Assembly (NCBI GenBank): GCA_016748015.1
Contig: JAAOMT010000239.1
Coordinates: forward strand, 256,218 to 320,217
Source of the DNA: Geosiphon pyriformis
Lineage: Eukaryota; Glomeromycota; Glomeromycetes; Archaeosporales; Geosiphonaceae
Direction of reading: 5' to 3'
Length of the DNA: 64,000 nt
In this document: one piece after another, positions 11,334 through 61,530 of the stretch
Layout of the letters: every line of letters begins with the position of its first letter
Numbering within the stretch: position 1 is the stretch's first letter
The notes under the pieces: model-generated
What the model was told of the DNA's origin: nothing
Database searches by the model: none
What the model saw: only the letters and a program-made list of their open reading frames with translations
Made by a program: the position numbers and the translations under genes

Positions 11334-14300
11334 GTAGAGATGAAGAAACAAGAGAAATTTAAAAGAAAATGGAGCTATAATTTTAGAGGGATCAAAATAT
11401 CTACCATATAAATCGCGACAACTTTAAAGATTGAGTTAATATTGGTTTTTCACTAATGGCGTTAAATATTCGGATACTAAAAAGATAAACTAGATTATAT
11501 AGAATTTTAATGGGGATGAACATTATGTTTTGCCTTTTTCTAATTTTTAATATAACCCTCAAAGATGTTTGTTTTAAATTTTGTTTGCTCTCCTTTATAA
11601 ATGTGAAAATTAAAATTAAAAGGACGATCGCAAAATAGATAATAGGTTTTTGTATTTTTGAATTGTATCAACAAAACGATATTATTAAACTCATTTAAGA
11701 AAAATTTAATGGTTGAATTTCCAAATAAAATTTTCTCACTACTTAGTATATTGATTTTTTAGGCACTTTGTAACTGATAAAATTTTAAAGAAAAATATTT
11801 CATTAATTAAAAGTTTCATAGATGAGACCGAAAAATTGAATTCAATAGACCTAGTGGTTTAAATCTTTATTAATTCTAATCCAGTTTTCTTAACAATTAG
11901 AATTGTATGGAATAGAAGATTATTGATTTGATCGCATGAAATCTAAAATGATAACTATTTTGAAAAATTTAAGAGGATAAAAAAGAATCCAATTTTTTTT
12001 GAAAAAGAACATTTAAAGAAATATTTATTCACTTGGTTTTACCAATTTCAAAAAAGGATTCATATTCTAACTTTTTTTCATTAACTTGATTTATTTTCTT
12101 TAATACTGACTAGAAATAAAATATATTATATTATAATAAATAAAAAAATTATATTAAAAATAAAAATTTTTTTTTATTGAATAAATATTAAATTTAATTA
12201 TACCTTGTTTCAAATCCAAATCCAAATCCAAATTCAAATAATATTTTAATATTACCAAGAATTATTGAGATACGATAATTGTAAAAAATTTTGTGATTCC
12301 AAAAAAAAAATTTATACGACTAATTGGTTTGTTATTAATCAAAATTTTCATATTAGTAATTGAAGAACAAAATTAGATTTTTTGCCTTTAATCATATTTT
12401 AAAATTTCAAAAAATATAATAATTAATAATTCTTTTTTTGTTGCTATATAAAAAATTTGGAAATAATATTTGATTTACATGTTTAAAAATTTACGAATTT
12501 AGCCGTTACTAAAAACTAATTAATATATATATATATATATTAAATATTTTAAATATTTTATCGATGTAAGGCAGATATATTCTTTTTTCCATAAAATTTT
12601 CATTTGACATTTTCGAAGAATCATTGCTTAATTAAAACTATTTTAAAACTAATTTAAAACTAATTTAAAACTATTTAAAATCGAATAAAAATTAAACATA
12701 TATTTAAATAAAACTTTTTAGATTTTACAAAAATTAAAGAAATCAGTTCAATAATCATTAATTTTAGTTTTAAAAAGATTGTGTATTTGACTAATTTAAA
12801 CAAAACCTTTTTAATATTAAAATTTTGATAAAATGCTTTAAGAAAAATTTTGTTTTACTCAAATAATACCACTGAATATTTGTTTAATGACAAGAATTTC
12901 TTATAATCCTTCTAAATCCAATATTATCAAATGCTTTAAAATTTTCAAAATAGTTTCAATTAGTTAATTATTAATATATATAACCAATATATATATATAT
13001 ATATATAATTTTAAAAAATTCAAAATTTTTCAATGAAAAAAAGTGTTTTTTTATTTACATATATTAGAATAAAAAATTTAAATCAAACTTGTATTTTTCT
13101 TTTGATTAAATAGTTTTTATATATAATAAGACTAAAATAAAATGTCAATTTAATAAAAAAATTTAATTTTATTAAATTGTGATAAAGGAAATTTTTGGAC
13201 AAACACTTTGATTAAGTTTTTCAAAAAAAAAATTGGTAAATATTAACACATAATAATTAAAGTTATGAAAATTATGATTAAAATTTTAAGTTGATCTTTT
13301 TGAAAAAAAAAAAAAAAAATGTAATACTATTTATAGTTTATAAATTTTTTAGACACATGAAAAAAGAAAATTTAATAATATGCTAATTTTAAAATAATTC
13401 AATTATTAACGACTATTTTCGTTAATTTTGATATTATTTATAGAAACACGTATTAACATTAAATAGTCATTTTAATATTTTTATTAATTTTTAAAAACTA
13501 AATATACATTTTTATCTTGACTTTAAAAATACTAGGTGTTAAATATTTTGATTAATCTTTATTTCAATGACAAAACAGTTATATATTTAAAACGTAAACT
13601 TTCTTTTATATCATTATTTTCTATTAGATTTAAAATAATTTTCTGATAATCAAAACTCTTATAGAATTAAAAAGCATATAGTGCTTTATTGCATATGTTT
13701 AATTAATATTTATATTGTTCGTAGCTTATATCAATTCCCTTTTTGAAAAAAATATTTTCTTACTGATATGTTGATATAATATTTTTAAATAATCATATTA
13801 TAATTAAATAGTTAACCACAAATATTAGGGAGCTTATTAGGTTATCAAACAATATCCCGAAAAAAAATTATTATTAATCTAAAAATATTTATTTTAATAT
13901 TTTTATTGGATATTATAAGTAATTAAAGAGTTAAAAGATAAATTTAATTTTAAAAATACTTTTTTCTAAAGTTCAGTCATATCACATTCAACTAATTATT
14001 TAAATATCTTTAATCCTAAGCTTTTGTAGTTTTCTTTAAAATCTAAATTCATTGCGAATTCAAAAGATTTATTCAAATTCTGCTAAAATTTTATTAGTTT
14101 TTTTTTATTACAATTATATTAATATTTCTGGGAAAATTATAAATTCATAAAATTTTGTTTGAATTCAATTAGTCAAGTATGTAAACAAATTAATATCAAA
14201 TTTATAATTTAATTTAATATAAAGAGTTAGAAATTTACAAACAAACATTGAAAAATTCATTTGATAAAAGTAATATTTGTCTGATTACTTTTTTTGAAAA

Positions 14301-40021: not shown

Positions 40022-41485
40022 GAATGATGGTTTTATATTTTTATGGGAATTGAGCAGTGGAAATCTTCATTAAAAGTAAATATTATACAAAATCTGTGAA
40101 CGGATCGTTTAATCTTTAGAAGGACGTGCGAAAGAACAAAATACTGAATAAATACAATTAGTTTTAATCAATTACACAACCGTTCAGTAAAAAATGACTA
40201 CAGAGGAAAACATGTTTCCCGGAAAATTAAATTTCCAAATTTTGAAAGAGTACAAGTGACGCCTCAAAATAATTTTCGTTTCGACCATTTACGGCGCATT
40301 TTTCCCAATTATTCCGATATAAATTGAACTCGGAGCTATTCGAATTTTTCTCGGATCCAATGAACAATTAGGTTGTTAATCAAAATTTTGGTTAAAATGA
40401 GATCGGCTTTACAGAAATCAGCCGTTTGCAGGCCAAGGGGTCAAGTTTCACTGCAGGCGGTCAAAGAGGCTCAATATTTGAAACGTGGAACCGCCAAAAA
40501 CAAAAGCGTAGCAATCCTGGTAGATCTTGGAAACTATCACCTTCCAGATTAATCACGCCAAGCCATTTTCAGATAGATGCATGGGAAACAAGAAAATAGA
40601 ACTTATCTATGAAAAGTGACTAAATACAAAATTCAAATTTCTTTTGAAACTTTGATTATCTTGAGAATAATCAATCTACCATTTCAAGATCTAGAATTAT
40701 TAGTTTGTTGCTTTATTGAGTGTAGTCTGTTCAGATAGAATCATTAACTACCACTACCTATGTAATCCCCAATCCCCCAATTCCCCATTTTATGAAGAAA
40801 TCTCACAAAGTGAAAGGGAAATGACAAGGCTGGACTGAATTCATAAATGGTAGAGAGAAATTTGAAGTCTATTTTTTCATATTTTCATTGTTTCTTATAA
40901 CTCTAATATAGGAACATCGCGATTAATCAACTAAAATCCAGATTAAAAATCGCAAGATAAGAGAGTTTAATATTATTATTTCTTGTGCTTCAGATTAACT
41001 TTAGAGCGTTTTAATGCAAATGATAATTAGTCTGGCTATTGTATAAGAAATGATGCTTCTAATGTTTCAAAATTTTCAGAATTTCTACATAATTTTTTTA
41101 TAAAATTTAAATAAGTATTCAATAAATGTAATAAAAATCAATTGTTATTTTATATTAGATCAAAAATTTAAAAAATAAATCATAATAAGTAGTAAATCTT
41201 TGATAAATAGAATATTATTTATCAAAAGACAACTTAATAATATTTACAATTAATAAAATTTTAATTGGTATTTTTCTATAAAACAAAAATTAAAACCAAC
41301 AAATTTGATAATTATATTATATTTAAGATATATATAATGTAAGTTTTTTAAAAATTATATAAAAATAAACAGCTGTTATTTTATTTATTTCAATTTATTA
41401 TTTATTTATAAATACTTTTATTTTATTATTGTTTGCAAATATTTATATGAAATAAATTATTATAAATAAATTTTATGAGAATATA

Positions 41486-41521
<36 letters not shown>

Positions 41522-41930
41522 TAAAAATTAAATTAAGTAATTCGAATTTTAATAAACAAACAATTTTATAAAATATTTTAAACAAAAATTTATTCTTTAT
41601 AATAATAAATTTAATAAGATTCTTTTAAATTATAATTTTTTTAAAGTTTATATTAAGCTCTAATTTTATATTTATATTTTATATTAAAATTAGTAAACAT
41701 ATTCAATATTTTTATTTGACAATTAATTTAGTTAAAATACATTTTTAATTAATTTAATTTCAGAATTAAAATAGTTGTTTATTTTTTAAACTTTAATATT
41801 TTTAAAAATAATTACTTATTTTTTTTCAATTAAAACTGTATAATATATCTTAAATTTTAAATTAATTTATTTATTATAATTGATTTATACATATTATAAA
41901 AATTTAACTTCTTTTTTTCTATGTCCAAAT
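40022..41930. other. Intergenic region upstream of the F-box gene
   Basis: 40190-40560 is relatively GC-rich (for example GCCGTTTGCAGGCCAAGGGG) and may be an old repeat. From 41040 the sequence becomes extremely AT-rich, with an (ATT)n run at 41490-41518. No gene seen. Confidence 0.5.
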
Positions 41931-41939
41931 TCTTTAAAA

Positions 41940-43854
41940 AGCCAATTTTGAAAAAAAAGTTTTTTGTTTTTTGTTTTTTTTACAATTTTATTTTTACAAT
42001 TTTATAAGACACAAACTCTTTTGTTGCTGTTTTGGCAATCATTACCAGTGGTATTATATTCAAAAAAAATCAACTAAAGATATTGTTTTAGGTTTTATTA
42101 ACAACAATTTGGTGCAAAAATCTAAAGTGTCTATTAACAAGATAAAACACTCAAACAATAAAGTATATTTAAAGTTCAAGTTACTTATGTACAATATTAA
42201 TTAGTTTAAAAACATAGATATTACTTCTAATAATACAAAAAAGAGTTTAACAATAAAAGTAAAAAGCTTTTAGATTTTCATATTAATACTTCTAAAGTAA
42301 AATAATTCAATATTAAAAAAACAATAGTCTTTTTTTTTGGCCTTTGTAATTTTAATATTGATATTAAAAACATATTTTTTTCTTTTTTACTTGATATATT
42401 TTTAAACAAAAAATAGATTGATTTAAAAATTTAAAAAAATCATTAAACTATATTTATATTAGATAAAAATATAAAACAAGTTATAATATTGGCCATTGAG
42501 AACAAAATTCAGATAAATAGCAATCTTAAAAAACAAAAAATTTATTTAGATTAGACTATAATCATCAAAAAAAATTTTATAAATATGTTTAAAAAAAATA
42601 TTATTTTAGTCTTATTTAAATTTGATCAAATAATATTTATTCAATTGTAATTAATTAGATTATAACAAAAAACTTTAATAAAATTTGCTAAATTAAATTA
42701 AGTTGACTTATTTACTAAAAAATAAACAGAAAAAATTTAGTGTATATAATTAAGACTATTTTAGATTAAGTTAATTAGATTTTTAAAAATTAATTTAGAG
42801 TGCTGTTATTTATATTATTAATGAAAACTATAATACATAATTTAAACTTTTTATTAAATAATATAAATAAAAAAACTTGCATAATAAATTATTTATTTAT
42901 TATTAATATTAAGCTTTAATATATAATAGTATGTTTTAAATCTAAAAAAAATTTTGATTATTTATTTTATACTGTTCTTATTTTTGATATAATTAAATTT
43001 TTTTGGGCCAAATTGAATTTAATTTGTTGTAATAAATGTAGTTATTTTAGATATTTAATTCTAAAGTATAATAAAATTATTTGTTCTTGTTTTACTGCTA
43101 AAAAAGCTTTTAAATAACTACTTTTTAAAAAAAAAAGTTGGATTTTGTTTGTTTTTATGCTAAAAAACAGGTTTTTGTATTTTGTTTTCTGGTTTTGAAA
43201 AAATATTATAGACTTAAGTAATTAACAAAAAACAACAAACTTTCAATTTAGTGTATTTTCTTATTAGAATATATTTTTTAATATTTTAATAAGTTCTGTT
43301 TCTTTTATTTTCTTTTTTTTAAATCTTAGTTAAACTTACTTAAATATTTATTAAAAATTTTTGTCCATGTAAATATATTTATAAGGATTTTTTTAATTAA
43401 TTATTAGTTTTGCTAATATAATCAGGTTTAATATAAATGTTTTTAATTTGTTTTCTTCTGTTATTAATTTAATTATTAATAATACTTTTCAATTGGTTTT
43501 TAATAATAATAAAATTTTTACTGTCAATATTAATAATCTAAAATTCAAAATATTAGCTTTAAATATAAGTATTATTTTAACTTATTTAGACTTATTAATT
43601 TCTGGTTATAGCTTTTTGTCTTTTTTTCTCTTAATGACTAGTTTTATTTAGAAAATTACTATGTGTAATATTAAAAAAATAAACAATTTTATAAAACAGA
43701 AAGATATTATTAAGTAATATATATATATAAACAATTTAGTTTTAATAGTCTTGAAAACAAAATTACATAATAAGATTAAATTATAAAATTATAAATAAGT
43801 TTAATGGAATTAGAATTTTTATTTCTAATATTAATTTTGATTATTTTAGTTTAG

Positions 43855-43886
<32 letters not shown>

Positions 43887-46130
43887 AATAAAGCAATAAT
43901 TAAGTATATATATAAGATTTTGGAAGTAATTAATTATATTGTTAATTTGCTTTTTGTTTAAAAACTGTTTTTTAATTATAATTCTAAATTATATGTTAAT
44001 ATTATGCTAAAAAAACTAATTTAGGCTTAGAAATTTAATTTAATAATAATAATAACTGTAAATATTAGTATATTTATAATATTTAAGAATAATTTCAATA
44101 AAAATAAATCAGATTATAATATAAGTTTTAAGAAATTTTTAAATTTAGATTTGTTTGATGTTTATTGTAATTTTTTTATTTGTAAAACTTTTATTTAATT
44201 TAACTTAAGAAGAATACAAAAGTGTCTGAATTTTGTTTTAATTAATAATAATTTTTAGAATACTGTATTTAATTAACTAGTGTATTGTTTGATGAAATTT
44301 TTTGATGCTAACTATTTAATTGTTTTAATAAATATTAGTCTAAAAAACTTTTTTAATCTTTAAATTAATTTAATACAAAAACAAATTAATAGAAATTACT
44401 AAAAGTATAAAATAAAAAATATTAACAAAAAAGTTTGAAAAAAATTTAATGTTTTATCTTTAAATATTGTATTAAATACTATTAAGAACTTTAATACTAA
44501 TAAAAAAAACAATAATTTTAATAAAATATAGAGTCTAATAAATTATACAATAATTTTTATAGTTAATACTGCTTTTTTAAAAGTTAAATTTTAAAATGAT
44601 AAAATTACTTATAGTATTACTTTGTTTAAGTTTTATAAATTAAAACAGCTGGTTTTTAAGATTCTGAAAGTATTTTAATTAATAAATATTAAACAGTTTT
44701 AAATTTTGTTAAACAAGTAAATTTAATTAAACTTGAATTTGACTAAGATTTTTAATAATATTTTAAATAATAATTCTGATATAAGTAATATAAAGCAAAT
44801 ATTAATTTAACCTAAAAAAATATACAAATTTTATAAAATATTGAAACCAAAACAGTTGAAATTATATCATAAAGACAGTTATTAATAAGTGCTTGAATTT
44901 TTTTTTATTAATAATAAAAATTAAATAATTAATAATATATTAAAAAAATCTTTTAAAAAAATAATACTAAACTATTTAATTATTAATAATAAATTAATTT
45001 TGAATTTTAATTTAGTTAAAAGCAAAGTTAATCTAATAATAAAAGATTAAACTAAGAAATATAAAATTAAAAACAGCATAGTTTTTTATTAGCAATAACA
45101 ATTTACTTTTCTTAATTATATAAATAATAATATTTTCTCTAATATTATAAAAAAAATTAGTTTTATTAAGTTTTTGGTAATTATTAGGGATCTTTTAAAT
45201 AAAAAATTGACTGGTTTGTCTTAAATTTTTAATAAAATATAGAAATATTACAATAAGTTTATTTTATATTAGTTTTTAAATTTGCTTAATAAATATTTTT
45301 TGATAAAAAAAGTTTATAATACTTAAAAAAAACATAAATATCAATAATCTCAAAACTATATAACTAAAAAAATGTTTTAATTAAAACTACAAAAAAAAAA
45401 TTTTTTAAAATTTTGTTTAATCATATTTTAAGAGCATATAATAAATTTGACATTTTAATAAGTGATAATTTTTTAATTTTTAAGGATATTTCAATTTAGT
45501 TTCTTATTTTTACTATTAGTTTGATTATTAAAAATACATTAAAAAAGAACAAAAAAGTTTAATTAATATTTTAAGACATGTACAAAATTTATAACTTAAT
45601 AAATTGAAAGTATTTGTATAATAATTTAAAGAAAGTAAAAATATATAGCAAATTTATCAGATTTTTTGGCCATATTTACAATAGTTACACAAATAAAATT
45701 ACAATAAATTTCAGTTTATTTACAGAATACAAAATTTAAAATAAGTTAAATTAGAGTAAAGTGTTTTTGTTTCTTTTATAAAAAATTTTTATGATTTTTT
45801 CTTGTGTAAAATAAAGAAATACAAATTATTTTTTAAATATTAAGTAAATTTTAGATTTGTTATATGAATTAGCAGAATTAAATTTAATATTAATATAACT
45901 TTATATCTGTTTTCAAATGTTTTCATTGATAACATAATTTAAATTAACAATTGCTATATAGTAATACAAAAAATATTAGATATTACAAATAAATTTTTTG
46001 AAATTAATAATATTACTATTTTTTTATTAACTATTTAATAAGTAAAGTCTAACAGCTATTTAATAGATAGAATCAAACTAAGTAGCTTAAACTAAATACT
46101 ATTTATGTTTTTATTATATGTGGTTAACCA
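41940..46130 (+). mobile_element. Hypermutated LINE retrotransposon, plus strand (LINE-A)
   Basis: The plus strand reads as a stop-riddled LINE. A decayed ORF1 region (around 41971-42204) leads to a zinc-knuckle remnant, LICCNKCSYFRYLILKY, at about 43020-43080. An endonuclease start (FTVNINNLKFKILALNI) follows at about 43518, then an endonuclease end (KTFI*FNLRRIQKCLNFVLIN, family TWSN...SRLD) at about 44185-44260. Reverse transcriptase lies at about 45480-46090, with STQSPIF-like and KAYD-like (YKIYNLINW) boxes and FFGHIYNSYTNKI. The catalytic FxDD box is now FIDN (45922-45933), followed by TAA where Trp is expected. Gln codons are frequently TAA/TAG, and CpG is absent over most of it. The 3' end meets the minus-strand LINE near 46130. 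No terminal structures could be defined. Confidence 0.78.
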
Positions 46131-46979
46131 TTCGAATTAGACAAGACAATACTAAATATTTATACTAATATATGTATTTTTACTTAAACCAAAAAAGAAA
46201 GAATACTGTTTACACTTATCAAAACTAATTATAAAAAACTTTACTATACCAAACAACTAAACCACCTTATTTAACAACATAAATACTATACAATAAGACA
46301 AACCTAAAATCATGTCACCATTTTTGATTAACTTAGCTTTTTTTATATTTATTTTATATTTTAATCTTACAAGTTATATCTTAGTTTAATGCAATTTTAC
46401 CAAATATTTTACATATTTAACAAGAGCAAAAGCCATTTTCACTCTTCTATTAAAAACTGTAACATTTTTAGCATACTAGTTTTTTAGCACAAATTTCTTA
46501 CAAATTGTCATATATAAATCTATGTTTAATAAACACTGAAAAATATTTACAGAATAATAAAAGAAAACAGACAGCAAGCACCTATTAATAATACTTATTT
46601 TTCAAAAACTTTTGCCAAAATATTCTCTTGAATACTACTATTCTTAGCATAAGCAAAAACATAATTAGATAATTTTACTTTATTACACAATAAATACAGT
46701 ATACTAGAATATAATTTATTATACAATTTTTTTCTAACTGTTATTAATAGTTACCTGTATACAGCTTTTATTAAGTATCTACACATATTTGCAGACTTTT
46801 TACTAGTAAACCCAAAAAGCATATGCAAGTCAGAATACCAGACTCTTATAGTAACTAGCCAATCTATTTCTTTAATTAGCACACTTGGAATTATATTAAA
46901 ACCAAAACCAGTCTTTTATTGAGCATAACAAACAAATCTGTACAAATTATGAACAAAATAATAAGTATTGCCAGACATA

Positions 46980-47480
46980 GCCATATTTTTAGTTATTATA
47001 AAACATTTCTGAATTCCAATTGGTAGAAAAAAAGGAGAGTAAGCAGTTTTATTCACTATTTTATTAGCTTAAATATTGTCCAAAATATCTAAATGATCTT
47101 TAAATTTTACTCATATAACAAAAAGCTTTTTATCTTTAATCAAATTAGCAATATGTTTTCTTTTTATCTAACACTAATTGCAAAAGTCTGGTACAGCAAA
47201 AAAAACCTCAGAAATACACATATCAATAACAAATTGTTTATTCAGATATAAAACTATTGAATAAAAAGATAGAATACACTCCAAAAACAGTACAATAGTC
47301 TGTAATTTAACTATTGTAAAAAACAAAAGACCATATATCTAAACACTAAAATTTGTACCTATAGTTGGAAAGTAAACAGCCACTCTACTAGCAACTTTAG
47401 CAAAACCAGTATACTTTAAAAAACTATCTGTGTAAATTTTAACAGAATTAGATTAAGTCTCAAATAAATCTCTTTACATA
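46980..47480 (-). pseudogene. LINE-B RNase H domain remnant
   Basis: VKIYTDSFLKYTGFAKVA corresponds to the first catalytic Asp region (YTDGSL). TIVKLQTIVLFLEC corresponds to the catalytic Glu region (AELQAIxxALE), with Glu now Lys. VKFKDHLDILDNI*AN corresponds to VKGHSG...AD, with Gly now Asp and Asp now Asn. All the changes are G-to-A or C-to-T. Confidence 0.8.
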
Positions 47481-48099
47481 TCAAAAAACTTTTTAAACTT
47501 CAAAATATTCAAACCAAATAATCTACCAGCATTAGCAAAATCAACCACCAAAGAATCTTTATCAATCAAAAATTTAAACACTAATTTAAACTAATAAGAT
47601 ACAGAACTTTTTAAATCTAATCTCTTCTATTGACAAAATGTTTTTCAACTTATCACATTTTTTTTTGTCTAGAAGTTTGTTATCAAAAACAACTCTAAAC
47701 TATTTCAAAAAAAGAACAAAGCTATAATATAGGAACTTCTTCAAAATATTTAACATTAGAAATTTACCAGAACTATAAAATACATTGAGTAAATTATTTA
47801 CTAAAGATAAATTATTGTTCAAAAAAAATTTTATCACTTTAGCCAAAAAATTGTTCATTAAATTAATATACAACTTAATAGAAAACTGCAGAAAATTCAA
47901 AGAAAACTACCTTAGAATCTGCAAATCCAAGAATTTATGTTTAAACAAATATCTAAAAATACCTAATATATTGAAAAAAACAATCAATAAAGCCATTTTT
48001 TTTGATTGTATTTACTCAAAAGACTTTAGACCATATAAAAATGGATAATACAAAGTCTTATTGAGAAAATCACATGGCAAACTGGCTTTGGCTTTAAAA

Positions 48100-49073
48100 C
48101 TTTTTTTGATTATTACATTCTATTTACAATATATATTTAATAAAACAAAATTAAACTGTAACTAATAGCTAATTATAGGCTGCAAAACAGCCAAGACCAA
48201 ATAAAAAAATTGTTTATTTATAATTGTTTTCTTTAATACTACATTAGAAAAAAACCTAATATTAATATAAGCTTAAACCAAACTAGATTTAAAGAGACTT
48301 TTAGCTAACCAAAAAATTTTTAAATATCTGTATAATTCACTTTTTTTAGCAATTGAAATTGACAAATCACTAATTATTAATAAGGCAGTCTTAATATCCT
48401 GATTAATAAAAATAGCTACTGTCTTTTTATTATTAATTAAAATATTATTAACATCAAAAAACTTACTAGCAATATTTAAAATATATTGAGTAGAAGTTTG
48501 TCTACTCTTAATTTAAATTGTGTTGTTAACAAAACACCAGCAACAAAAAATAATGTTTTTTCTTCAATTTTCTCAATTTTGCCAGTCTTGGCCACAAACT
48601 TTATATTAATTTAATATTTATACAAATGTTTATGTCTTTTGACTTTACATAAAAGTAGATTATAAAAAATTTTCCAGAAGAAAGAAAATCTTATCTTAAT
48701 CCAACTTATTATGCATTTTGTAATTATCTAAAAATTTAAAGTCAGTTATTATCTTATTGATCCAATTTTCATATATGTTAACAAAAAACTCAATAAACTA
48801 ACTATTTATCTTGATGTACTATAAGCCAGTTCTCAAATAATGTCTTTTTATTAAATCATAAGTCTTATATATATTTTGTAAAATCAACCAAAGTTTTCTA
48901 TTTTTTTTTAGTGCATCTTTAACAATTAATCTAATAACAAAAATAGAAAACTGAGTTGAAATACTTTTTAATACTAAAAAGTTATCACTACAAAAAATAT
49001 TAAATTTGCTATATGCTAAGAATATCCAATCAGAAAAAATTTTTAACAGAATTTTCTTAACTGTTTTAATCAA
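48100..49073 (-). pseudogene. LINE-B reverse transcriptase domain remnant
   Basis: Contains the fingers/palm boxes of a non-LTR reverse transcriptase, including the KAYD-like segment, QGEVFSPLL-like segment and catalytic F-V-N-N. Both catalytic Asp codons have become AAC, and the following Trp has become TAA. Further on it reads STQYILNIASKFFDVNNI, a well-kept conserved region, so the identification is secure despite stops. Confidence 0.8.
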
Positions 49074-51443
49074 TATAATAAGTTAAGTATTTATTAAAAT
49101 GCTATTTCACTTATAAAATTTAGAGATTATTAAAATCTATGCTTTCTTCCAAAAAATTAGAACTATATCTAAAGTCAAGCATAAATTCAACAATTTTAAA
49201 AGACATTTTAATATTTTGCTTATAAATACTATAAAATAAATATTCAGAAAACTACTTAAACTAATTGAAACTAAAACTGTCTTGTGATCTATATCAAAAA
49301 ATTTTAACACAATATTAATCTTATAACTTGCAATTATAAATACCAAATTTTTATTCATAAATATAAAATCTAATACTTTTTCAACACTCTTAGAGTTGCT
49401 TTAAATAGAAGCTTTGGTTAATAAATGTTTATCAAATATATTAACAAATTCAGATCTAAACAAAACTTGAAATTTGCACTTCTTTTTGATCTATTTTTAT
49501 TGAAATTTTTATCTAAAACCACAAAAGTATTGGAATTGACTGTTTTAACAATAAAAAGTGATTTTTAATGTTTATTCAAATTTAACCTTAGAAAAAGCAC
49601 TAACATACAACCTCAAAATTGTTATTGAAAGTTTATTTTTAAATAAAAAACAAACTAAAATGATTTTGCCCAAAATCTCATCAACTTTTAAGATATATTA
49701 AGCCAAAAAATTGTTCATATTATAGTTATTTAACACAAAAAAAACTTTTATCTAAATCAAATATAAAAATTCATATTTTTTTAAACTTATTTATTATCTA
49801 AGACCTAATATTAGACTTTAATTTAGTTTCTGTAATAATAAAAATCATATTACTCAAATTAATATGTTATCAAATAACATCAGCTTGTTTAGTAAAAATA
49901 TTAATACTTTTAATATTACATATAGTAATCTTCTATACAAGATTAGTTATTAAGAAGAAAAAATGTCTAAACCAAAACCAATATTGTTTATTTTGGCCAT
50001 AAAACCCAAAATTATATCTAAAAAACTTTTTAAATTGTCTTCCAACTTAAAAATTACTAATAAATCCAAAAATGCCACTTTTATAACAGTTTTATTACTA
50101 ATAGTTATACTTAAACTCTTACTCATTACTATATTTATCTCTTAATTCTGTGATAAAAGAGTTACCAATAACTGATATTCAAGATTAGACTAAAAAACTA
50201 TTGGTCCAAGTATATTTAACCTCTTAGTTAGCTTTTTGACTTGCTCTGTAAGATTAATAAAACCATGCTTAAGAATAGTAAACTTATTATTTATTTTCAC
50301 AGATACTAATAAAAAAAATTTAATATCTGAAGACAAACTATTACCAAAAAAAACTAGAGAAACCATTTAAAAAAAAGAACTACTAGCAATTTGTGCTTAA
50401 GTTTTCTCACTAAAAAAAACTGAGTAAGCAATTAGTATTTGTTTTTTCTTATATATATTTACCAAATAAATTTGATCTTAAAAATTAACTATCCTCTTAA
50501 TGTAATCATTCAAATTTTTATTCTTTAAACAATCATTAAAAACATAATTGAATTGTTTATACTGAGCACAACAGACCAAAAAAAAACCAGTCTAATATAA
50601 ATTTTCACTTTTAAAGACTAGAATAAAACCAATAACAGCTTTTTTGGATATCTTATTAGCAAAATAAATTACAGCACATCTATTATGTACATATAAATCT
50701 GAATTACAGTCAATGAAACAAGTTTTCTCATTATATGAAACCAATAATTCAGAAAAATTATAAGCAATAATACAAATTGGCAAAGTATATAGTAAAGTTT
50801 AATGTTAATTTTTAAGTACTTATATTTGTTTATTATTAACAGTCTTTATAATACAAACAGAATCCTTTCTTAGTAAAACAAACTATTTGGTTATAACCAA
50901 ATTGATAATCTTAATCGATTCAAATTCCACCAGAGTCTTTTGCTAAAGACTAATTAACTGTATTTTAATAAACACAATCTTGTCAAATTTAAAAAAAACT
51001 AATTTTACAGCCAATTTTGAAAGATTTACCAAAAAATTTTTGATTATTATTTCTCAATCTGTATATTTGTTTGCTATTTTGATATTATTATTGACTAAAA
51101 TTTTTTTATTAATTGTTAACTCTCTAGTGTTTTTCAAACTAAACTTAGATATAAAAAATAATCTAATTATACCAGAAAATTTTAAAGAAGTTGATGTTTT
51201 TTCAAAACTATCAACACAATAAAAAATTTTTTTCACTATTATTAACTTATTACCAAAAAATTTCTTAAACATAACAAAAAACTTAATATCTAATGCAAAA
51301 AATTTTGTTGAATTAAAACTCTATTTTTCTAAAACACATAATTTAATCAATAAAAGTTGCTTGAAATTGTCAAACTTAAGTGACAGAAACATTAAAATTT
51401 TTTTATTATTGCTTAAATTTATGAATAAAGGAGCTTTTGGTAA

Positions 51444-51761
51444 TTAATCTAATATATATGTTTGAGTGTAAGTTTTCTGCAATATGGTATTATTTATATT
51501 TTTATTAACCACTAAAGTATCTGAATTTACATAGTTAGTCTTTTTGGCAACTGTGTTTTTCATATTTTTTACATTTAATAAACTGCTAATATTATTGGCT
51601 TTACTGCCAACTTTGTTATCCCAAAATACTATAGACTTTTTACTATAGACACTAATATTTTTAAGACTTAAAAGACCAGCAGACAAGTTAACTATATTAA
51701 TGCTTATATTAAGTTTTTTTGGCTTTTTGTAAAATGCACTGTAAAAATATACACTCTCCAT
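51444..51761 (-). pseudogene. LINE-B ORF1, N-terminal part
   Basis: The longest open piece of the minus-strand LINE (105 residues), Lys/Ser/Asn-rich and unstructured, as expected of the ORF1 N-terminus of these retrotransposons. It probably survives because it is poor in Gln and Trp codons, which become stops by C-to-T and G-to-A changes. A purine-rich (poly-A on plus) tract at 51869-51943 lies just before its start. Confidence 0.6.
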
Positions 51762-51868
51762 TTGCTTTTTTTTAATGCTTAATTATGTTTCTAAACCAGC
51801 CAAACTTAAATCAGAGCTTACTGGTTTTATCACAATAAAAAAAAGTAAGTTGAAAGAAATAACTAAGA

Positions 51869-51910
51869 AAAACAAAGAAAAAAAAAAAAAAAAAAAGTTA
51901 AAAAAAAAAA

Positions 51911-51943
<33 letters not shown>
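51869..51943. repeat. Poly-A / purine tract
   Basis: About 75 bases of almost pure A with scattered G and C on the plus strand, upstream of the LINE-B start. It creates a spurious polylysine open frame (51775-51978). Confidence 0.85.
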
Positions 51944-51947
<4 letters not shown>

Positions 51948-52379
51948 TTTCTTTGATAAATTATTGTTTTTGTTATAACCAAAGAATTGACAAAAAAAAA
52001 TTTTTTTACTATTAATATAAACAAAACAGTAACTATTTAAATTAACTTTTAAATTAAAAATATTTTTTTAAGTATAAACAATTCTTTAATTTTGTTACTA
52101 AATCAAATAAGTTTTATCAATATTTAGGAATTTTTTTGTTAATTCAAAATTTTTTTGTATTTAACTTAAAAAAAACTAATTTGAATATCAAATTTTTTTT
52201 TCATAGTGTTATGAAAAACCATTTCTAATAAACAATTTTTTTATTTAGTTTTAGTTATTTTACAACTGATTATTAATTATAGAACTCAGTTTAGTTTTAT
52301 TAATAAGAGTATATATAAAAAATAAAATTAGCTAATCAAAAAAGACTTAAAATTTAAGACAAATTTATTAAAAAATTTT

Positions 52380-52946
52380 CAAGTAAAGTTATACACCATT
52401 TTTTTTAGTATAATCTAAAACTATTTGAGCAAATTCAAGCTAAAAAAAGATGACATTTGTCATGAACTTTGCAAATAATAAAGGCATTCTTGGTAAGCTG
52501 TTTAGATACAGACTTTTAGATTTGCAGATGTTAGATTAAATTCTTTGTAATCTATTTTAATATTCAGTTGGCTTGAAAATCAATCCAAGAAACATTTTTC
52601 TGGCCAGTGTTACAAAAATTTTTTTGAACAATAAGCTAGCCATGATGAATTACATGTTCAATGCTTTTTATTTTAAGCAGAACTTTCTTGTTATGAATGT
52701 TTTAAATTACAAAAAATACTTTGGAGTTGTTAGATTTCTTAAACATTTTGGCATTGTTTTTGCTGATCAATTTCTGAATAGTCATAAAGAGTATTTTACT
52801 TAGAAGAATTTTCACTAATGAAAGCAGTTGGATCTAAAAGAATCTGTGACTTTTTGGTTCTTATATGTTGCTGATTTTGTTTTGGGTGGTGGCTTGGCCA
52901 ATAATCCTTCTTTTTCTAATACTTTGCATGGCTTAAACATTTTAAG
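52380..52946 (+). pseudogene. Fragment of a third LINE (between reverse transcriptase and RNase H)
   Basis: LGKLFRYRLLDLQMLD, INPRNIFLASVTKIFLNN and RFLKHFGIVFADQFL read through with few stops. They are homologous to the LINE-B segment on the minus strand at 47700-47900 (NNFLAKVIKFFLNNNL...NVFY), so this is the linker between the reverse transcriptase and RNase H of a related LINE. It ends at LNILSS exactly at the left end of the hAT-like element. It is less damaged than LINE-A and LINE-B. Confidence 0.7.
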
Positions 52947-53961
52947 TAGTGTTCTGATTGGTTTGGTTAAAACCGAACTGAACCATGATTTGACTCATCA
53001 GTTTTGGTTCGGTTTTTGAAGTAAACCGAACTGGAATTTCAATTCGGTTTTTTTTCAGTTTCGGTTCCATATAAAATCGAACTGAAACCGAATCAAAAAC
53101 CTGGTGATTGCATTCATGTAACATTGTGATAAGCATGAGAATAAATCATGCATCACATTTACATGACAACGTGAGAAATAAATTACAATTATGACGTGCA
53201 ATTTTTTTTTTCGATCAAAAAAAATGCATAGACAATAAAAAAAATTGCCCATTATGTAAACTTTTTGCTTTTAACTCCCAGTGCAATAAAAAGCAACTTC
53301 CAAGATGTTAGGTAAGTGAGCCAGATAAGTGAAAAAGAAACATAATCAGCATATCAAATTTAAGTAAAAAGGCGCAAAGCTGAGTGTAAAAGCATTTTGA
53401 ACTAATAGAAGAGATAAACGGAAAGAAAAGAGAAAAGTCCACCTACTGTAGACAAGTTTTATCTTAATAATAATAGTGAGATAATACATATTTTTATTTT
53501 TATTAATATTCCTATTTATAATAAAAAAATTTATGTTCTGGGAGAAAACAATATGATAAATCGCTTGAAGAATTTAAAAAAAAACCATCTAATCAAACTT
53601 AATAATAAAAATTCTGGAACATTGGATGGTTTTGTTCAGGATAAAAGAATTTCAGTCAGTATATTGATTTTTTTTATTTTATTTTTAATTTAGGAGCCCA
53701 AATGATTCGGACATATATGTGCTTGAAAAGTTGGTAGCAAAGTAGCATCATTAATGATTAAAGTCATTGTAAATAAAATTGTGTGATTTGTCTTTATTTG
53801 TGTATTCAATTTTAACTATTGTAATTTCGGTTTTCAGTTTGGTTCCAGTTTAGTTCAGTTTTTTACCTCAAAAAACTGAACTGAAACTGAACTGAAAAAA
53901 AAAATTGATTCAGTTTTGATTTAAGGAGAAACTGAACCAAACTGAACTATTCAGAACACTA
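52947..53961. mobile_element. 1-kb non-autonomous hAT-like element
   Basis: Ends TAGTGTTCTGA...TCAGAACACTA as inverted repeats, with many subterminal CGGTTTTGGTTCGG / AAACTGAACTGAA repeats. Inside, several CpG dinucleotides and ordinary composition contrast with the CpG-free block around it. No credible coding region. The immediate flanks (ATTTTAAG and GCTGAAAT) do not match, so no target duplication is seen. The left flank is LINE and the right flank is a DUF7869-type gene. Confidence 0.78.
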
Positions 53962-53984
53962 GCTGAAATAAATTATAAATTAGT

Positions 53985-55000
53985 GCACAAAAACTTTTTA
54001 ACTAGTCTAAAAGAAGATAATAATTTAAAATTTTTAAAATATAATACTTTCAAAAAATTATGACATTAATTGATACCAGAAATTCAAATTATGAGTTTTA
54101 AAACTGATTTGTGTAATACTTGTTAACATTTTAGAGATAATTTACATTTTAATGTTTATCAAAAAAAAAGCCAAAGAATTACTTAAAAAATTTAAAGAGC
54201 ATTTGTTTAAAAAAATATTATAATAAAAATATTAAGTTAGCAAAAAAATAAAAAAAATTAGTTAATCTAAAATATTTAGAAAGTAAAATACAATATTATA
54301 GTATTGATATTACCAGATATTATAGTTATAATTAAGTCTAGAATGTTTATATACCCTATTTAAATTAACAAATAAATAAAATCTATTATCTTAGTTTATG
54401 TAAAGCTCATTTATTTGGTATTTAAAATGAATTAATAGGAAAGCAAATTAATTATGTTCTTAATAAAAATAAAATTATAGATAAAGATTTCAATAGTACA
54501 CTTAATATAATCTTTAATGAAATTAAGAAATTGAATAAAAATAAAAAACATTTAAAAATTACTTGGGATAATATAGATAAACAAAATAATAATAATGTAA
54601 CAATTTGATTTTATTTAAATTTAGTAATTTGCGAATATTATAAAAGTGTTGAATTAATTTTATAGTTTCAAGACATATTAAATTTAAATAAAATAATAAT
54701 TTTAACATGATTAAAAAACTTTACAAAAAAACGAAAGTAAATTGTTTAGATTATATAGTTTTAGTAATAAAAAAGTCTAGTTTAATAGAATTAAATAACA
54801 CTTAATGTTATAAAAGTAGAAAATTTTTTTAATATTTAGATATTAATGCTATTTTGGAAATTTATTTTAAAAATTACCAAGTATCCAGAAATATTAATAT
54901 TTTTTTTTGAAGCATTTAATTTTGTTGTAATTAAAGCTTTATTTATTTTAGTATTAATACTACTTTTTTTGAACTACAAAAGACAAGAATATTTTTACTA
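53985..55000 (+). pseudogene. Hypermutated DUF7869-type transposase-like gene
   Basis: Read on the plus strand it gives PEIQIMSFKTDLCNTC, then YYSYN*V*NVYIPY, CKAHLFGI*NELIGKQINYVL, ITWDNIDKQNNNNVTI*FY and, in another frame, IVSRHIKFK*NNNFNMIKKL. These correspond in order to the DUF7869 family landmarks CDTC, HYSxDxAQ, PRKxxIFG...QxNYLI, DNCxGQNKNN and PGHTKFxPDxxFGxIK. This family is frequent in Rhizophagus and probably a DDE-type transposase. Cys to Asp/Asn, Pro-Gly to Ser-Arg, Gln to stop and Trp to stop are all transitions. At least one frameshift lies near 54660. Its 5' end is cut by the hAT-like element. Confidence 0.72.
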
Positions 55001-56750
55001 AAATATTCATATATTTGTTAAAAATAAATTCAAAAATATTATTTGTTTAAGACTATTTTATACTGATAATAAATAAAACATTTAGAATAAAATTACTTTT
55101 ATGACTTTGTTACTTATTAATTTGTTTTTTGCTATTATTAAGTTTTAACAAGTTTAATTTTTTGACAAATATTGTCAGTTTTATCTACTTTAAAATAAAA
55201 AAGTACTAAAATAATTTATATACTTAATATGTTTTCATAAAAAAAATATAAGTATATTAAAAGAATAAAAAAGCAAAACCATAATAAATATTATAAAAAC
55301 ACAAAAAAAGCAAATAAAAAACTATTAAATGAAATTAAATTATTAAAGAAGCAATTAGCCAATAAAAAAAAATTTGAAATTAAGAATTTGAAATATAGTT
55401 AAAAATACTGTTAAAAAATATAAAATCTTAATATTAAAAATCTTATAAAGATTTAAATAACTTAAAAATAATTAAGTAAATTATCTAAAAAGAAATTTAA
55501 CTGAATTTAGAAAAGTGGTTTTTAGTAATAAATTTATTTTTGAAAATATTATTAATAGTTTTGCTAATAAAGTATAATATTATGAGCAATATTTTAATTT
55601 TTATGTTAAAAAAAATACTGAATTAAAAAAAACTAATTAAAAGTTAAAAAAAAACAAGAGAAATTAGAAGCAAAAATAAAAAAAATTAGATAATAAAGTA
55701 TAAATAGAGCAAAAAAAGGCTGAAAAAGCATTAAATAAAGCCATGAAATAAAATAAAATAACAAATATTTGAAACTGTATTATAGTATGATACTATAATA
55801 GACAAATTTTAAGACTAAATAAATTTATTAAAAAATAATTTGTTGGTTAAAGATTGAAAAATAAATCAAAAAAATTATTTAGAAAACAAAAAATTATTAA
55901 TTTTATCAAAACAACAAAAAAAAACGGATTATATAAACTCAAAAAATTAGTAAACAAAATAAAAGAAAACTAAAAAGTTCCAAACTTTTATTGTTTAGAA
56001 AAATAAATAATTTAATATGAGATTAAAATATAAAATTTTAAAAATAATTTAGTAAGATAAACAAAAATATAACTTTTGTTTTCTAGATTTTAATGACTTA
56101 ATTTTTCTTAATTTTAATACTGTTTTTACTATTCATTAAATAATGGCTTATAATATTCTTAATAATTATTTTGACATTGTTTTTATCTGTAGTAAATATA
56201 AAAAAGATTATGATAATAATACTTTTCTATAATATAAAAAATATAATAGATTAAAAATTAAATTACTTTTTAATAAAGATTTACTTTTACAAATTTCCAG
56301 TTTTTATTTAGAAAATAAAACTAAAGAACTAGAAAAAAAGTTATTAATTACCAAAAAAAAATTGAAAATTGAAAGAAAAAAAATAGCCAAGTTTTAAGAA
56401 AAATTAGAAAAGTAAAGTAAAAAACAAAAACAAAAATTATTGAATAAGATTAAACAACAAAAAGCAAAATTATTAAATTAACTCAGAAAATTGAACAATT
56501 GAAAACTTTAATTCTTTAAGAGTTAATTAATAAGTTAAATGCTTATAAGACAAAGAATAAGAAATTAAAGAATTAGTTAAAACAATTACAATAGAATGGT
56601 TAATTAACTACTCAAATTAAAATCAAAAAAACTAAAAGATGATTTTAATTAAAAATAAAGGAAATTTATTCTAATTATTAAAGAAAATGATATTTATTTT
56701 CTTTTTAAAGATTTTTGTTTTTTATTAGGTAATAATATATTATCATGATG
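55000..56750 (+). pseudogene. Coiled-coil, Lys-rich coding relics
   Basis: AT-rich sequence with readable Lys/Leu/Ile/Asn-rich pieces (KANKKLLNEIKLLKKQLAN near 55300; KTKELEKKLLITKKKLKIERKK near 56310) interrupted by stops at Gln positions. One piece starts MAYNILNNYFDIVFICSKY (56142) and suggests a Cys-pair domain (family CSKCKKDY) followed by a coiled coil. Possibly accessory genes of the DUF7869-type element; function unknown. Confidence 0.45.
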
Positions 56751-57309
56751 ATTTTTTTTTCCAATATTTATTATTTTTTTTTCTTCTTAATAAATTTTAT
56801 AGGTAATTCTTTCTTTTCTTAGATAAGTTTCCAGTGTCTAAGTATTATTTATTATAAAAATATAAAAAACAATTTTTTCATTTTGTTCTTTTTTCAAAAT
56901 ACTTCTAATGGTACTGTAATTCTTTGGCTCTATAGTAAATCTAATATAAATAAGTTTTATATTAATTATTTTTATATAGAGATAATTCTATATATCACTT
57001 AATATTAAAAGGATAACAAATAAAAAATTTTAATAATCACATTACTAAATTTTGATTTCTGAAATCTTTAATAATACCAATGTTCACTTTGTCTGGTTTT
57101 GTTGCAGTATGCTCCATATATTAAAATCCACTAAGTTGTAATTAGTAATTTTATTTTATTGTGTTACATTTTTAGTGAGCCTTGATTTAACTTTTTTCTT
57201 ATTTTATTAAAAAATAATAAGGCGTTAGTTTTTGGCTACATAAAGTTTGAATCACAATGTTCCTACATTAATAAATTTTTATAGTTTGATTTTAGAGCGT
57301 GAATCATTC
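56751..57309. other. Border between the AT-rich block and the kinase relic
   Basis: No gene. The last roughly 120 bases (from about 57240, AAAGTTTGAATCACAATGT) resemble 22365-22400 upstream of the kinase paralog at 22.6 kb, so they belong to the duplicated promoter region. Confidence 0.5.
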
Positions 57310-58446: not shown

Positions 58447-58933
58447 TTTTTGAATTATTGACTTTGATTAATTAAATATTATATATTTAATTAAAATTAT
58501 TTAAAAACAGAATTAAATAATTTAGAATGTAATAATTTATTTAAATTAAAAAAATCATTTTAAATTTTAATTAAATTTGTTAAAGAGACATGTATGACTA
58601 AACAAAATTTATTATAAATAACGTTTTTTAAATTGAAACAATTTATGCTTTTTATAGTGTTTTTGAAAACACTAAGTTAAATTCATTATTCGGAAATAAT
58701 TTAATTTAATAAAAAGGTGAATCATAGATAAATTAGAACACTAAAAAAATTGATAATAAATTTGACATAAAACATGCTCTGTTATTAAAGCATTAAACTA
58801 ATCAAAGAATTGAGTAATAAATTTTAAAAGAGCAAATAAAAAATCATTACGAACGATCCGATCTTTAAAAATGCCATTAAAAAGTAAAATAAATTTTCAA
58901 TATATGTTAGTTAAAATCAAATGAAAAAAATGC
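58447..58933. other. Spacer between a kinase relic and the intact kinase
   Basis: AT-rich 487 bases between two convergent kinase copies; nothing recognisable. Confidence 0.5.
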
Positions 58934-60336
58934 CTAAGTTACATAAACTTTGATGTTTTGCATAGCTAAAGGACGACTTGAATAAACTGCTTGTGGATGA
59001 ATTATTCTTGACGTTTTCGTTGTCAAGTCGTCGTTTTCTGCATTTTGTTTTATATACTTCTCTGATTCTAAAAACTGCAACCGCTCATTTGAAGACCTGT
59101 TATTATACAAATCTTGAAGCTCAGTCAACCTCGCTTTAACTTCTTTGGCAGTAGGACGATTGAATGGATTAGACTCCCAACACCTTTTAATAAGTTCAGC
59201 ATAACAAGGTGGAATAAGGGGGGAGGTAATCTCAGGCCTTTGACCATTAAAAATAATATCTAATATGAGATCGCGGTCATGAGGACGATCATGAAAGGGA
59301 GGCTTTCCCGTTGCCAATTCCCATAATAACATCCCTAGACTATAAATATCACCAGCCGTCGTAAACTTTCCCCCTCCTAAAACTTCTGGCGGAATATATG
59401 GAATTACTCCATATATTCCTGTTGTTGTTGTTGTTGTTGTTTGATGATTTGTAGGTTGACATAATCCGACGTCTCCAATTCTTACATAACTATTATTGAA
59501 TTGTAAAATGTTGCCCGAGTGTAAATCGCGATGAACCATGCCAGCAGAATGAATTTGATCAAGTCCAGAAGTTATAGACCACGCGATCATCAATTTATTA
59601 AACCAATTCGTTGAATGAAAATTTGTTGACATATATCTCCGCATATCACCATGTTGAGCAAATTCCATCACAATTCCATACTCTTGTGTTTCAGTGTTTT
59701 GCGTAAGTCCTATTACTTCAGAGATAAATGATAGGCCCCAATTCTTCAGAAACATAGATCTTTGTATATTTAACTATCAAAAAGGAAAGAACGATAAATA
59801 GTTAATTAGTTAAAATAATAAGGATTAAACTCAAAGATAAACGCAAATAATAATAGTAATTTGATTACCTCTTTCAAGAGTTCATCATTCTTTAAAGTTG
59901 GTTTTATAAATTTTATTGCCACTTCATTATCTGTTTCTTCCTTCCAATTAGTTTTTCTTCTTTCATATTCACCACCACATTTTATACTATATTTATCAAT
60001 TAAACCATCCACGTAGGTTGCTTTATAAACTGTAGCAAACCCTCCCTCTCCAATTTTGTCAATATTTGATAAACGCTCCCATGGAATCCATTCATAATAA
60101 ACAACTCTGCCATAGTGATCTCCAGATTTCCCATTAGGTGGAAGATAGATAGGAGTCTTGATTAATTCATCAACCACTTTATTACCGCTTGAAAAATCTT
60201 TGTAAAGTCTTTCCAAAAATATAGATTTGCATGCTCCACACTTATTCCATCCATGTCCAACGCTCTCTTGACAGAAAGAACACACTTTACAATCATGAAT
60301 TTGTGGACGATCTCCTTCAATATCAAGGTTTCCCAT
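58934..60336 (-). CDS. TKL-type protein kinase, intact family member
   Basis: Exon 1 is 60336-59869 and exon 2 is 59773-58934; GTAATC donor, TTTTGATAG acceptor, phase 0; 435 residues. The start MGNLDIEGDRPQIHDC is chosen because the broken paralogs begin MENLxIxRTRPxxHDC at the same point; an upstream extension through the (CA)n repeat is unlikely. Order: Cys pairs CKVCSFC...WNKCGAC (about 16-42), linker LYKDFSSGNKVVDEL, YEWIPWERLSN, glycine loop GEGGFATVYKATY, ATP lysine VAIKFIKP, catalytic loop MVHRDLHSGN, GDVGLCQP, PPEV for APE, and CWESNPFNRPTA at the end of the domain. The short tail ends around IIHPQAVYSSRPL. The DFG position reads DVG. All catalytic residues are present, so it is probably active. 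Substrate unknown. Three broken copies lie in the same window. Confidence 0.92.
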
Positions 60337-60361
60337 GTGTGTGTGTGTGTGTGTGTGTGTG
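60337..60361. repeat. (GT)n microsatellite at the kinase start
   Basis: A GT run (CA on the coding strand) directly abutting the ATG of the minus-strand kinase, in its 5' leader. Confidence 0.9.
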
Positions 60362-60442
60362 AATAAAGAATGAAATGTGAATAAGTTATTATGAAAAGCT
60401 TTTATTAACAATATTTCTTTAAAAAGGGGTGGGGGAAATTCT

Positions 60443-60450
60443 TATTTATA
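60443..60450 (-). promoter_or_regulatory. TATA box of the intact kinase
   Basis: On the minus strand GAAATACTATAAATAAGAAT then TTCCCCCACCCC, 107 bases upstream of the start, matching the context at the 22.6- and 62.7-kb paralogs. Confidence 0.65.
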
Positions 60451-61530
60451 GTATTTCTCTTAATAAAAAACAGTTTAACTTTTTCATCAAACAATTGTTA
60501 AAAGTATTAAAGTTACCAGAGATTGATTAAATCATCATTATTACAAGTATTAGTCTGATTAAGATTTGATATTCACAAAAAACGCCCAAGAATATTTCTC
60601 ATTGTCTCGTTATTTTGAGTGTAAAAGGGGTCAGCTATTATATCATAGAAAAACTTTTTCATATGAAATACTTACTAATTATGTGTCAAACTTTCCTCAA
60701 CATTAAAAATAATTACAATAGGAAATAAAATCACCAATCACAAAGTATCTTAAACGCAAGCTTAATATAATGATTTAATTTTTACTGATTTTTTCTCAAT
60801 TCGTAACATGATCATTAATCAGTCTTGAAACGAAAATTTTTTTCCCATACTCTTAATATTTATATTTGCAAATACCATTTATAAGTGATTTAAAATTTGA
60901 TAAAAAAAGTTTCCTTTTGAAACTATAATATAATTTATCAAAACTTCAATAAAAATAATTTTGATTTACTCTATTTTGAGTCTCAATTTTTGTCTAAACA
61001 TCCAGCATATCAAAACATCCAACATATCAAAATATGAGCGATCAAGTATTTATTCATTCCTTACACTAAATTTAATTTTAGAAATCTTACCATTAAAGAT
61101 AATCTGACATATAGATGATGCGAAACATTCCAATTTTTAGTGGCTTATTTTTCAAATTAAAGCCTTAAACAAATTAGCTATTTTTGTACATGTATATGAG
61201 ATCTAGACACCTATTACGAGATAGTATCGTTTTATTGATTCAAATAAGATAAGGAAAGGGCTGAATTAAGAACAATACCAAAGAGTGATCATTATTTCAT
61301 ACCGTTTCGAGATAAAAGGTTACGAATTTGAAACAATGATATCCCTTATCGGAGGATCTAATGAAAACGTGTGTAAGATTAATTATAATTTAGTTTCTTG
61401 AAAAAAAAAAAAACTTTCCTATACTATGATGATCTGGCTTTATGTGCTTTGCCATCTCTTTTGAAGAAAACTACAAAAAAAAATGAAGGCTTCCAGATCA
61501 TAAATCATCTTAGTGACAGATAGCACTAGT
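60451..61530. other. Intergenic region
   Basis: Moderately AT-rich, no gene recognised. A near-exact short duplication, AACATCCAGCATATCAA / AACATCCAACATATCAA, lies at about 60998-61030. Confidence 0.5.

Follow-up and report, generated by a model that had tools for sequence, protein, structure and literature searches.

Transposons in a genome resembling that of an arbuscular mycorrhizal (AM) fungus have been degraded by C-to-T hypermutation, a finding strongly supported by genome-wide copies of three families: two Ty3-type families and one long interspersed nuclear element (LINE), a relic of which lies within the block 41940-56750 of the window, the 64,000-nucleotide stretch analysed here (C402:256218-320217 of a 124.7-Mb assembly). 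The spectra come from these three families in the one genome, with a single coding gene family, of protein kinases, as the control. Its gene content would make a placement in Glomeromycotina plausible. Scaled by transversions, C>T change is ~45-55 times as frequent in the transposons as in the kinase genes. This hypermutation looks chronic and methylation-linked, unlike repeat-induced point mutation (RIP) of the Neurospora type, which is disfavoured by the sparing of the kinase family and the lack of a CpA preference. An initial annotation of the window had proposed that the block was inactivated by C>T and G>A changes in a RIP-like manner; the inactivation itself is borne out by a transition excess against 14 LINE copies, and the pattern extends to the Ty3-type families Y and Z, in which 92% of single-copy changes are C:G>T:A.

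CpG depletion and dinucleotide indices

The block holds 20 CpG dinucleotides against 128 expected (log10 P -31.9), confirming a scarcity first noted by eye. Only 2 are present in 42000-52003 (83.1 expected) and 0 in 42000-46000 (19.3 expected), and 15 of the 20 are concentrated in a less decayed stretch at 52974-53828. Outside 41900-57200 the window is close to normal, with 885 observed and 947 expected. The usual CpG density is back from 57223 at the right edge. The left edge lies in DNA so AT-rich that CpG alone cannot place it, the last CpG being at 41543 and the preceding one at 41007.

In five 2-kb bins of 42001-52000, TpA/ApT is 1.05-1.18 and (CpA+TpG)/(ApC+GpT) is 0.86-1.14, the first minus the second being positive in four of the five, versus 0.82 and 1.33 outside the block. 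Both indices, whose calculation the initial annotation had suggested, have thus moved in the RIP direction. An equally AT-rich comparison bin outside the block (12001-14000, 15% guanine plus cytosine, GC) has a CpG observed/expected ratio of 1.11 and indices of 0.93 and 1.19.

Mutation spectrum of the LINE family

A genome search with 46000-52000 returned 64 matches, with several pieces per copy and the window included, from which 19 further LINE loci were fetched; 14 of them cover enough of the left part (A) to be used there, and 5 enough of the right part (B). Every one of the 19 carries 0-2 CpG in its matched part, where GC content is now 21-26%. The ratio of transitions to transversions (ts:tv) between the window and the 14 A copies ranges from 551:34 to 655:141 (4.6-16 to 1) and is 6-17 to 1 against the 5 B copies; over 105 pairs of part A, transitions amount to 20.3% and transversions to 2.6%. 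Aligning copies from the same genome and counting changes, as had been proposed, yields the predicted transition excess.

When bases present in at least two copies are counted, the 3200 ungapped columns of part A include 870 C/T, 525 A/G and 72 A/T, besides 1613 with A only or T only and 56 with C only or G only, from which it appears that ~45% of columns were once C:G. The loss of C:G among scorable columns is 40-54% per A copy and 32-42% per B copy, and these figures are minima because columns changed in every copy are invisible. C and G have been lost nearly equally in all 15 rows of A. C:G>T:A change on both strands of repeats, with few other changes, is one of the marks of RIP, and it is found here. 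Compared with the open frames of six sister copies, the window carries 18 in-frame stops (a total in which one stop may be scored against several copies; a seventh copy, L024, gave no nucleotide match). The conversion of Trp and Gln codons to stops described in the initial annotation holds for 14 of these, 10 at TGG and 4 at CAA or CAG, and fails for the other 4, at AAA (twice), TAT and TGT.

Direction and context of change in young Ty3-type families

The reverse-transcriptase frames L001-L008 are presumably Ty3-type, judged by eye from motifs in their proteins, the family search having used PF00078 alone; a profile built from them found no match in the window block or in L010-L052. In families Y and Z, ts:tv is 25.6 and 30.8. 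Singletons, the changes seen in one copy, are C:G>T:A in 311 of 335 cases in Y (with 11 A:T>G:C and 13 transversions) and in 272 of 300 in Z (12 and 16), so transitions other than C:G>T:A are as rare as transversions. A divergent pair, L001/L006, has a ts:tv of 361:70, and pairs across different Ty3-type families are at ~1:1 or lower. Among the 40 candidates scored in each of the searches with L003 and L002, every full-length match is 90-95% identical to the query, and the one match above that range is a 143-bp piece at 98%; this star-like pattern suggests even decay after a burst.

The changes reach beyond CpG, as the initial annotation had noticed, and affect all CpH contexts (H being A, C or T) in Y and Z and in LINE part A. 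For Y and Z together, the fraction of sites changed is 0.27 at CG, 0.10 at TCH, 0.08 at CCH, 0.04 at ACH and 0.04 at GCH, the C>T rate after a 5' T or C being ~2.4 times that after A or G; by 3' base it is 0.06 at CA, 0.09 at CC and 0.06 at CT. In young copies the frequency of change at CpG is 3-7 times that at other cytosines. The fractions in the old LINE part A are 0.45 at CA, 0.51 at CC, 0.46 at CT and 0.67 at CG, with the same order of contexts (TCA 0.64, ACA 0.38, GCA 0.35). CpG is the fastest-mutating site in both data sets, as expected for methylation-linked deamination, and the CpA preference of ascomycete-type RIP was found in neither. Nor do successive changes cluster on the same strand (adjacency z 1.2 in A, -0.3 in B, 0.5 in Z and 0.2 in Y).

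A duplicated gene family without C>T excess

The control gene, on the minus strand at 58800-61000 of the window, encodes a protein kinase (PF07714 5e-37 and PF00069 1e-32 in 58934-59773), has a CpG observed/expected ratio of 0.78 and counts dozens of paralogs in the genome. Its copies, of 0.7-1.4 kb, are 69-79% identical to it, and ten paralogs (L053-L062) were taken for comparison from 53 match rows that include pieces and the gene itself. Across 55 alignments of at least 400 bases the family has 4300 transitions and 4895 transversions. By column, ts:tv is 0.91 (0.81-1.03) for all 11 sequences and 0.86 (0.59-1.23) for the closest trio, L058-L060, which differs by 23 C:G>T:A, 27 A:T>G:C and 54 transversions. 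Within this one gene family, the duplicated genes show no C>T excess. Transversions about equal or exceed transitions even in the closest fetched pair (92.6% identity over 1.27 kb, ts:tv 31:35), which is low by comparison with other fungi.

When C>T changes per C:G site are divided by transversions per site, the kinase trio gives 1.4, whereas five transposon trios, of which the two from Y have one copy in common, give 62, 62, 72, 72 and 75. This quotient stays at 62-75 while transversions go from 0.20% to 0.44% per site, a twofold range with small counts. Among the older layers, the LINE shows 20% transitions and 2.6% transversions, and long matches of F1, a more ancient relic described below, show 13-17% and 5-11%. 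Young and old layers would together fit a steady decay that continues until cytosines are exhausted; repeated small bursts would also be compatible.

A possible link to DNA methylation

The explanation that we favour, with some reservation, is that transposons are kept in a methylated, mutation-prone condition and decay steadily by C>T change. Copies would be recognised as transposons and held in a chemically marked state, the mark most likely being dense methylation of cytosines both within CpG and outside it, and a steady conversion of cytosine to thymine on both strands would in the end remove CpG altogether and about half of C:G. A fungal DNA methyltransferase of the DIM-2, RID or DNMT5 type would lay the methylation, and deamination would be spontaneous or enzyme-assisted, not a sexual-stage burst. 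Searching the genome for PF00145 gave 10 matches on 6 contigs at 7 loci; stops occur in some of the matches and may reflect introns or decay; one piece resembles DNMT1-type enzymes, and RID was not identified among these matches. Two of the DNA-methylase genes or gene parts, C318:788280-789372 and 820713-821336, lie ~32 kb apart. For the AM fungal clade, DNMT1, DNMT2, DNMT5, DIM-2 and RID are stated to be present, and 32.5-49.5% of cytosine is reported as methylated in Rhizophagus irregularis (PMC8298701); methylation at Rhizophagus transposons is also reported (PMC8647823). Given that CG sites are put at 13.8% of cytosines (PMC8647823), such levels would by our own reckoning, across differing methods, require much non-CG methylation.

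Several points weigh against this explanation. Plain deamination of 5-methylcytosine (5mC) usually gives less than a ~50-fold rise, and the process may require the help of an enzyme. The kinase control is coding DNA under selection, and the young transposon trios contain only 5-11 transversions each. By the two-to-one rule these trios also yield 23-111 A:T>G:C changes, above the transversions; we read most of them as C>T in two of the three copies, because the larger alignments give 11-12 such singletons. Strands are not always affected alike: losses of C and G are unequal in some B copies (30% and 38% in L015), L070 has 7 C>T and 18 G>A singletons, and the Z copy L063 has lost 7.4% of C and 3.6% of G. 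The published Rhizophagus transposon methylome is built on CpG calls only, and old degenerated copies are described there as low in CG methylation (PMC8647823).

Alternatives and related systems

Classical RIP, in which homology marks out duplicated DNA of any kind before meiosis for bursts of mutation by RID, shares much with the pattern described here: C:G>T:A change on both strands of repeats, with non-CpG sites also changed and transversions rare, leaves transposons inactivated and shifts the indices of the block, and RID is reported for the AM fungal clade (PMC8298701). We nevertheless consider it unlikely. In contrast to the RID-dependent process of Neurospora and other ascomycetes, CpG leads and CpA is not favoured, and dozens of kinase duplicates have been spared, with identities reaching 92.6% over 1.27 kb. 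The constant C>T/transversion ratio of young copies and the even 40-54% loss over 15 A rows argue against a burst in the sexual cycle, albeit with small transversion counts, and the process is steady as far as tested. Moreover, some multi-copy Ty3-type elements retain long open frames, and the host, if an AM fungus, lies outside the ascomycetes. The repeat-directed deamination of the initial annotation therefore survives as a C>T process acting in three families and not as strict RIP, with which spared kinase duplicates, no CpA preference and no strand clustering are at odds. Possible but rather doubtful is a mitotic RIP-like mutator, a DIM-2 or RID type methyltransferase that drives C>T change in transposons during growth with context rules of its own. 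It would suit a change that is transposon-limited and C>T-dominated with a very large rate ratio, and Zymoseptoria tritici offers a precedent: in mitotic growth with functional dim2, >95% of mutations are reported to be C>T and >95% to fall in 5mC regions, no sexual cycle being needed (PMC8016269). The changes in Zymoseptoria are, however, at CA and not CG (PMC8016269), whereas here CG is highest and all CH contexts are hit with a 5' pyrimidine preference, and the enzyme would be a candidate by analogy.

The near absence of CpG from each of the 19 old matched parts, and the excess of change at CpG in young copies, would also follow from plain methyl-CpG decay combined with mutation pressure towards AT in an AT-rich genome; the non-CpG counts contradict CpG decay alone, and we regard this account as very improbable. 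An APOBEC-like deaminase acting on single-stranded retroelement cDNA is scarcely credible: a preference for 5' T (TCH 0.10 versus GCH 0.04) and the modest C/G imbalance of a few copies point its way, but the changes grow in proportion to transversions and hence to the time since insertion, C>T and G>A are both common in every copy, and strand clustering is absent. Sequencing error, likewise rejected, would hardly explain a loss of about half of C:G in old copies.

Another related case is that of Microbotryum and Tuber, where transposon C>T change with a CpG signature is thought to be methylation-linked (PMC4352252). The signatures reported there are CpG or CpG plus CpA (PMC4352252), whereas here CpT and CpC are changed about as CpA is, and a gene-family control distinguishes transposons from other repeats. 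For Entomophthorales, also outside Dikarya and with cytosine methylases present, the reported signal consists of dinucleotide RIP indices accompanied by the authors' caveats (PMC10515909); the present evidence comes from alignments of copies, spectra with a known direction of change and a control gene family. A ~45-55-fold difference between transposons and a gene family in an AM-fungus-like genome contrasts with the survey of Badet and Croll (2025), which describes RIP-like repeat-enriched signatures in ascomycetes only and leaves Rhizophagus unnamed in its main text (PMC12543289). RIP signatures went undetected in the AM fungus Gigaspora margarita, as cited by Dallaire (2021) (PMC8647823), and the titles and abstract openings listed by searches of open-licence literature gave no report of such a C>T effect in Glomeromycotina. 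By our own reasoning, such a process may escape screens that use CpA or that compare k-mers with AT-rich non-coding DNA. A real, if minority, possibility is that AM fungi possess a dedicated mitotic mutator that separates transposons from multi-copy genes and converts cytosines in all contexts, preferring CG and YC (Y being C or T), where a sexual cycle has not been observed; it would add another variety to the C>T genome defences of fungi. If general, the effect would explain how large gene families coexist with dead transposons and would allow transposons to be dated, and it would open the part played by the methyltransferases to direct testing.

Nested relics within the block

The block had been taken for a single 15-kb unit inactivated as a whole; it is instead composed of several nested transposon relics of differing ages and not the product of a single event. 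The oldest layer, F1, is a LINE-type relic on the plus strand whose left part (42000-46020) is 13-15% GC in 42000-46000. It matches 11 fetched genome copies at 69-75% identity, chiefly over 43400-46000; further repeat copies also match 42000-43400, where there may be a second element. Its right part (52014-52881, plus strand) adjoins the left in other genome copies (L031-L038, L052), so F1 has been interrupted by the LINE at 46021-52005. We call F1 a LINE because a sister-LINE frame matches it by tblastn at 44073-44393 (35%) and others match the right part at 52444-52788 (38-39%).

The inserted LINE, on the minus strand with 2 CpG, has a T-run at its 3' end and a candidate 8-bp target-site duplication, of which the left copy (46013-46020, plus strand) is identical to 52006-52013. 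Judged by eye from the flanks, the 8 bases occur once in the uninterrupted relative L037, and the duplication is not conclusive because the DNA is AT-rich. Near 49206-49217, where a few bases overlap at the join, the window copy lacks 690-870 bp present between the matched halves of other copies, probably through a deletion.

To the right of F1, an insertion at 52948-53687 is less decayed and probably younger than the rest, with ts:tv of 113:13 against L047 and 101:18 against L051; with its right neighbourhood it holds the 15 CpG of the stretch noted above. A relic of a DUF7869-type element follows at 53958-55396 (plus strand), and a further decayed repeat, with no family assigned, lies at 55679-57120 and matches L042 and L048. 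For F1, the DUF7869-type relic and this last repeat, ts:tv is mostly 1.2-4.7, with short pieces down to 0.6. Our own reading is saturation with age; a weaker process is equally compatible, and these layers add little weight.

Pfam searches of six whole read-through frames of the block and of ten pieces, six of them from the window, gave no match, and PF25273 has no direct Pfam match within the window. Domain assignments for the block accordingly rest on relatives, through which the reverse transcriptase, RNase H and DUF7869 domains named in the initial annotation find their support. The C-terminal region of the inserted LINE (46652-47110, minus strand) is homologous to the open frame L015:226-1179 (31%, E 2e-23), another genome relative of which, L072, has RVT_1 and RNase_H immediately upstream; by way of L015 and then L072, the LINE would be predicted to have encoded both. 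For the DUF7869-type relic, seven genome copies of the 53958-54940 region (C346, C341, C257, C295, C387, C317 and C220) overlap PF25273 matches, which by homology places the PF25273 region at about 54420-54915.
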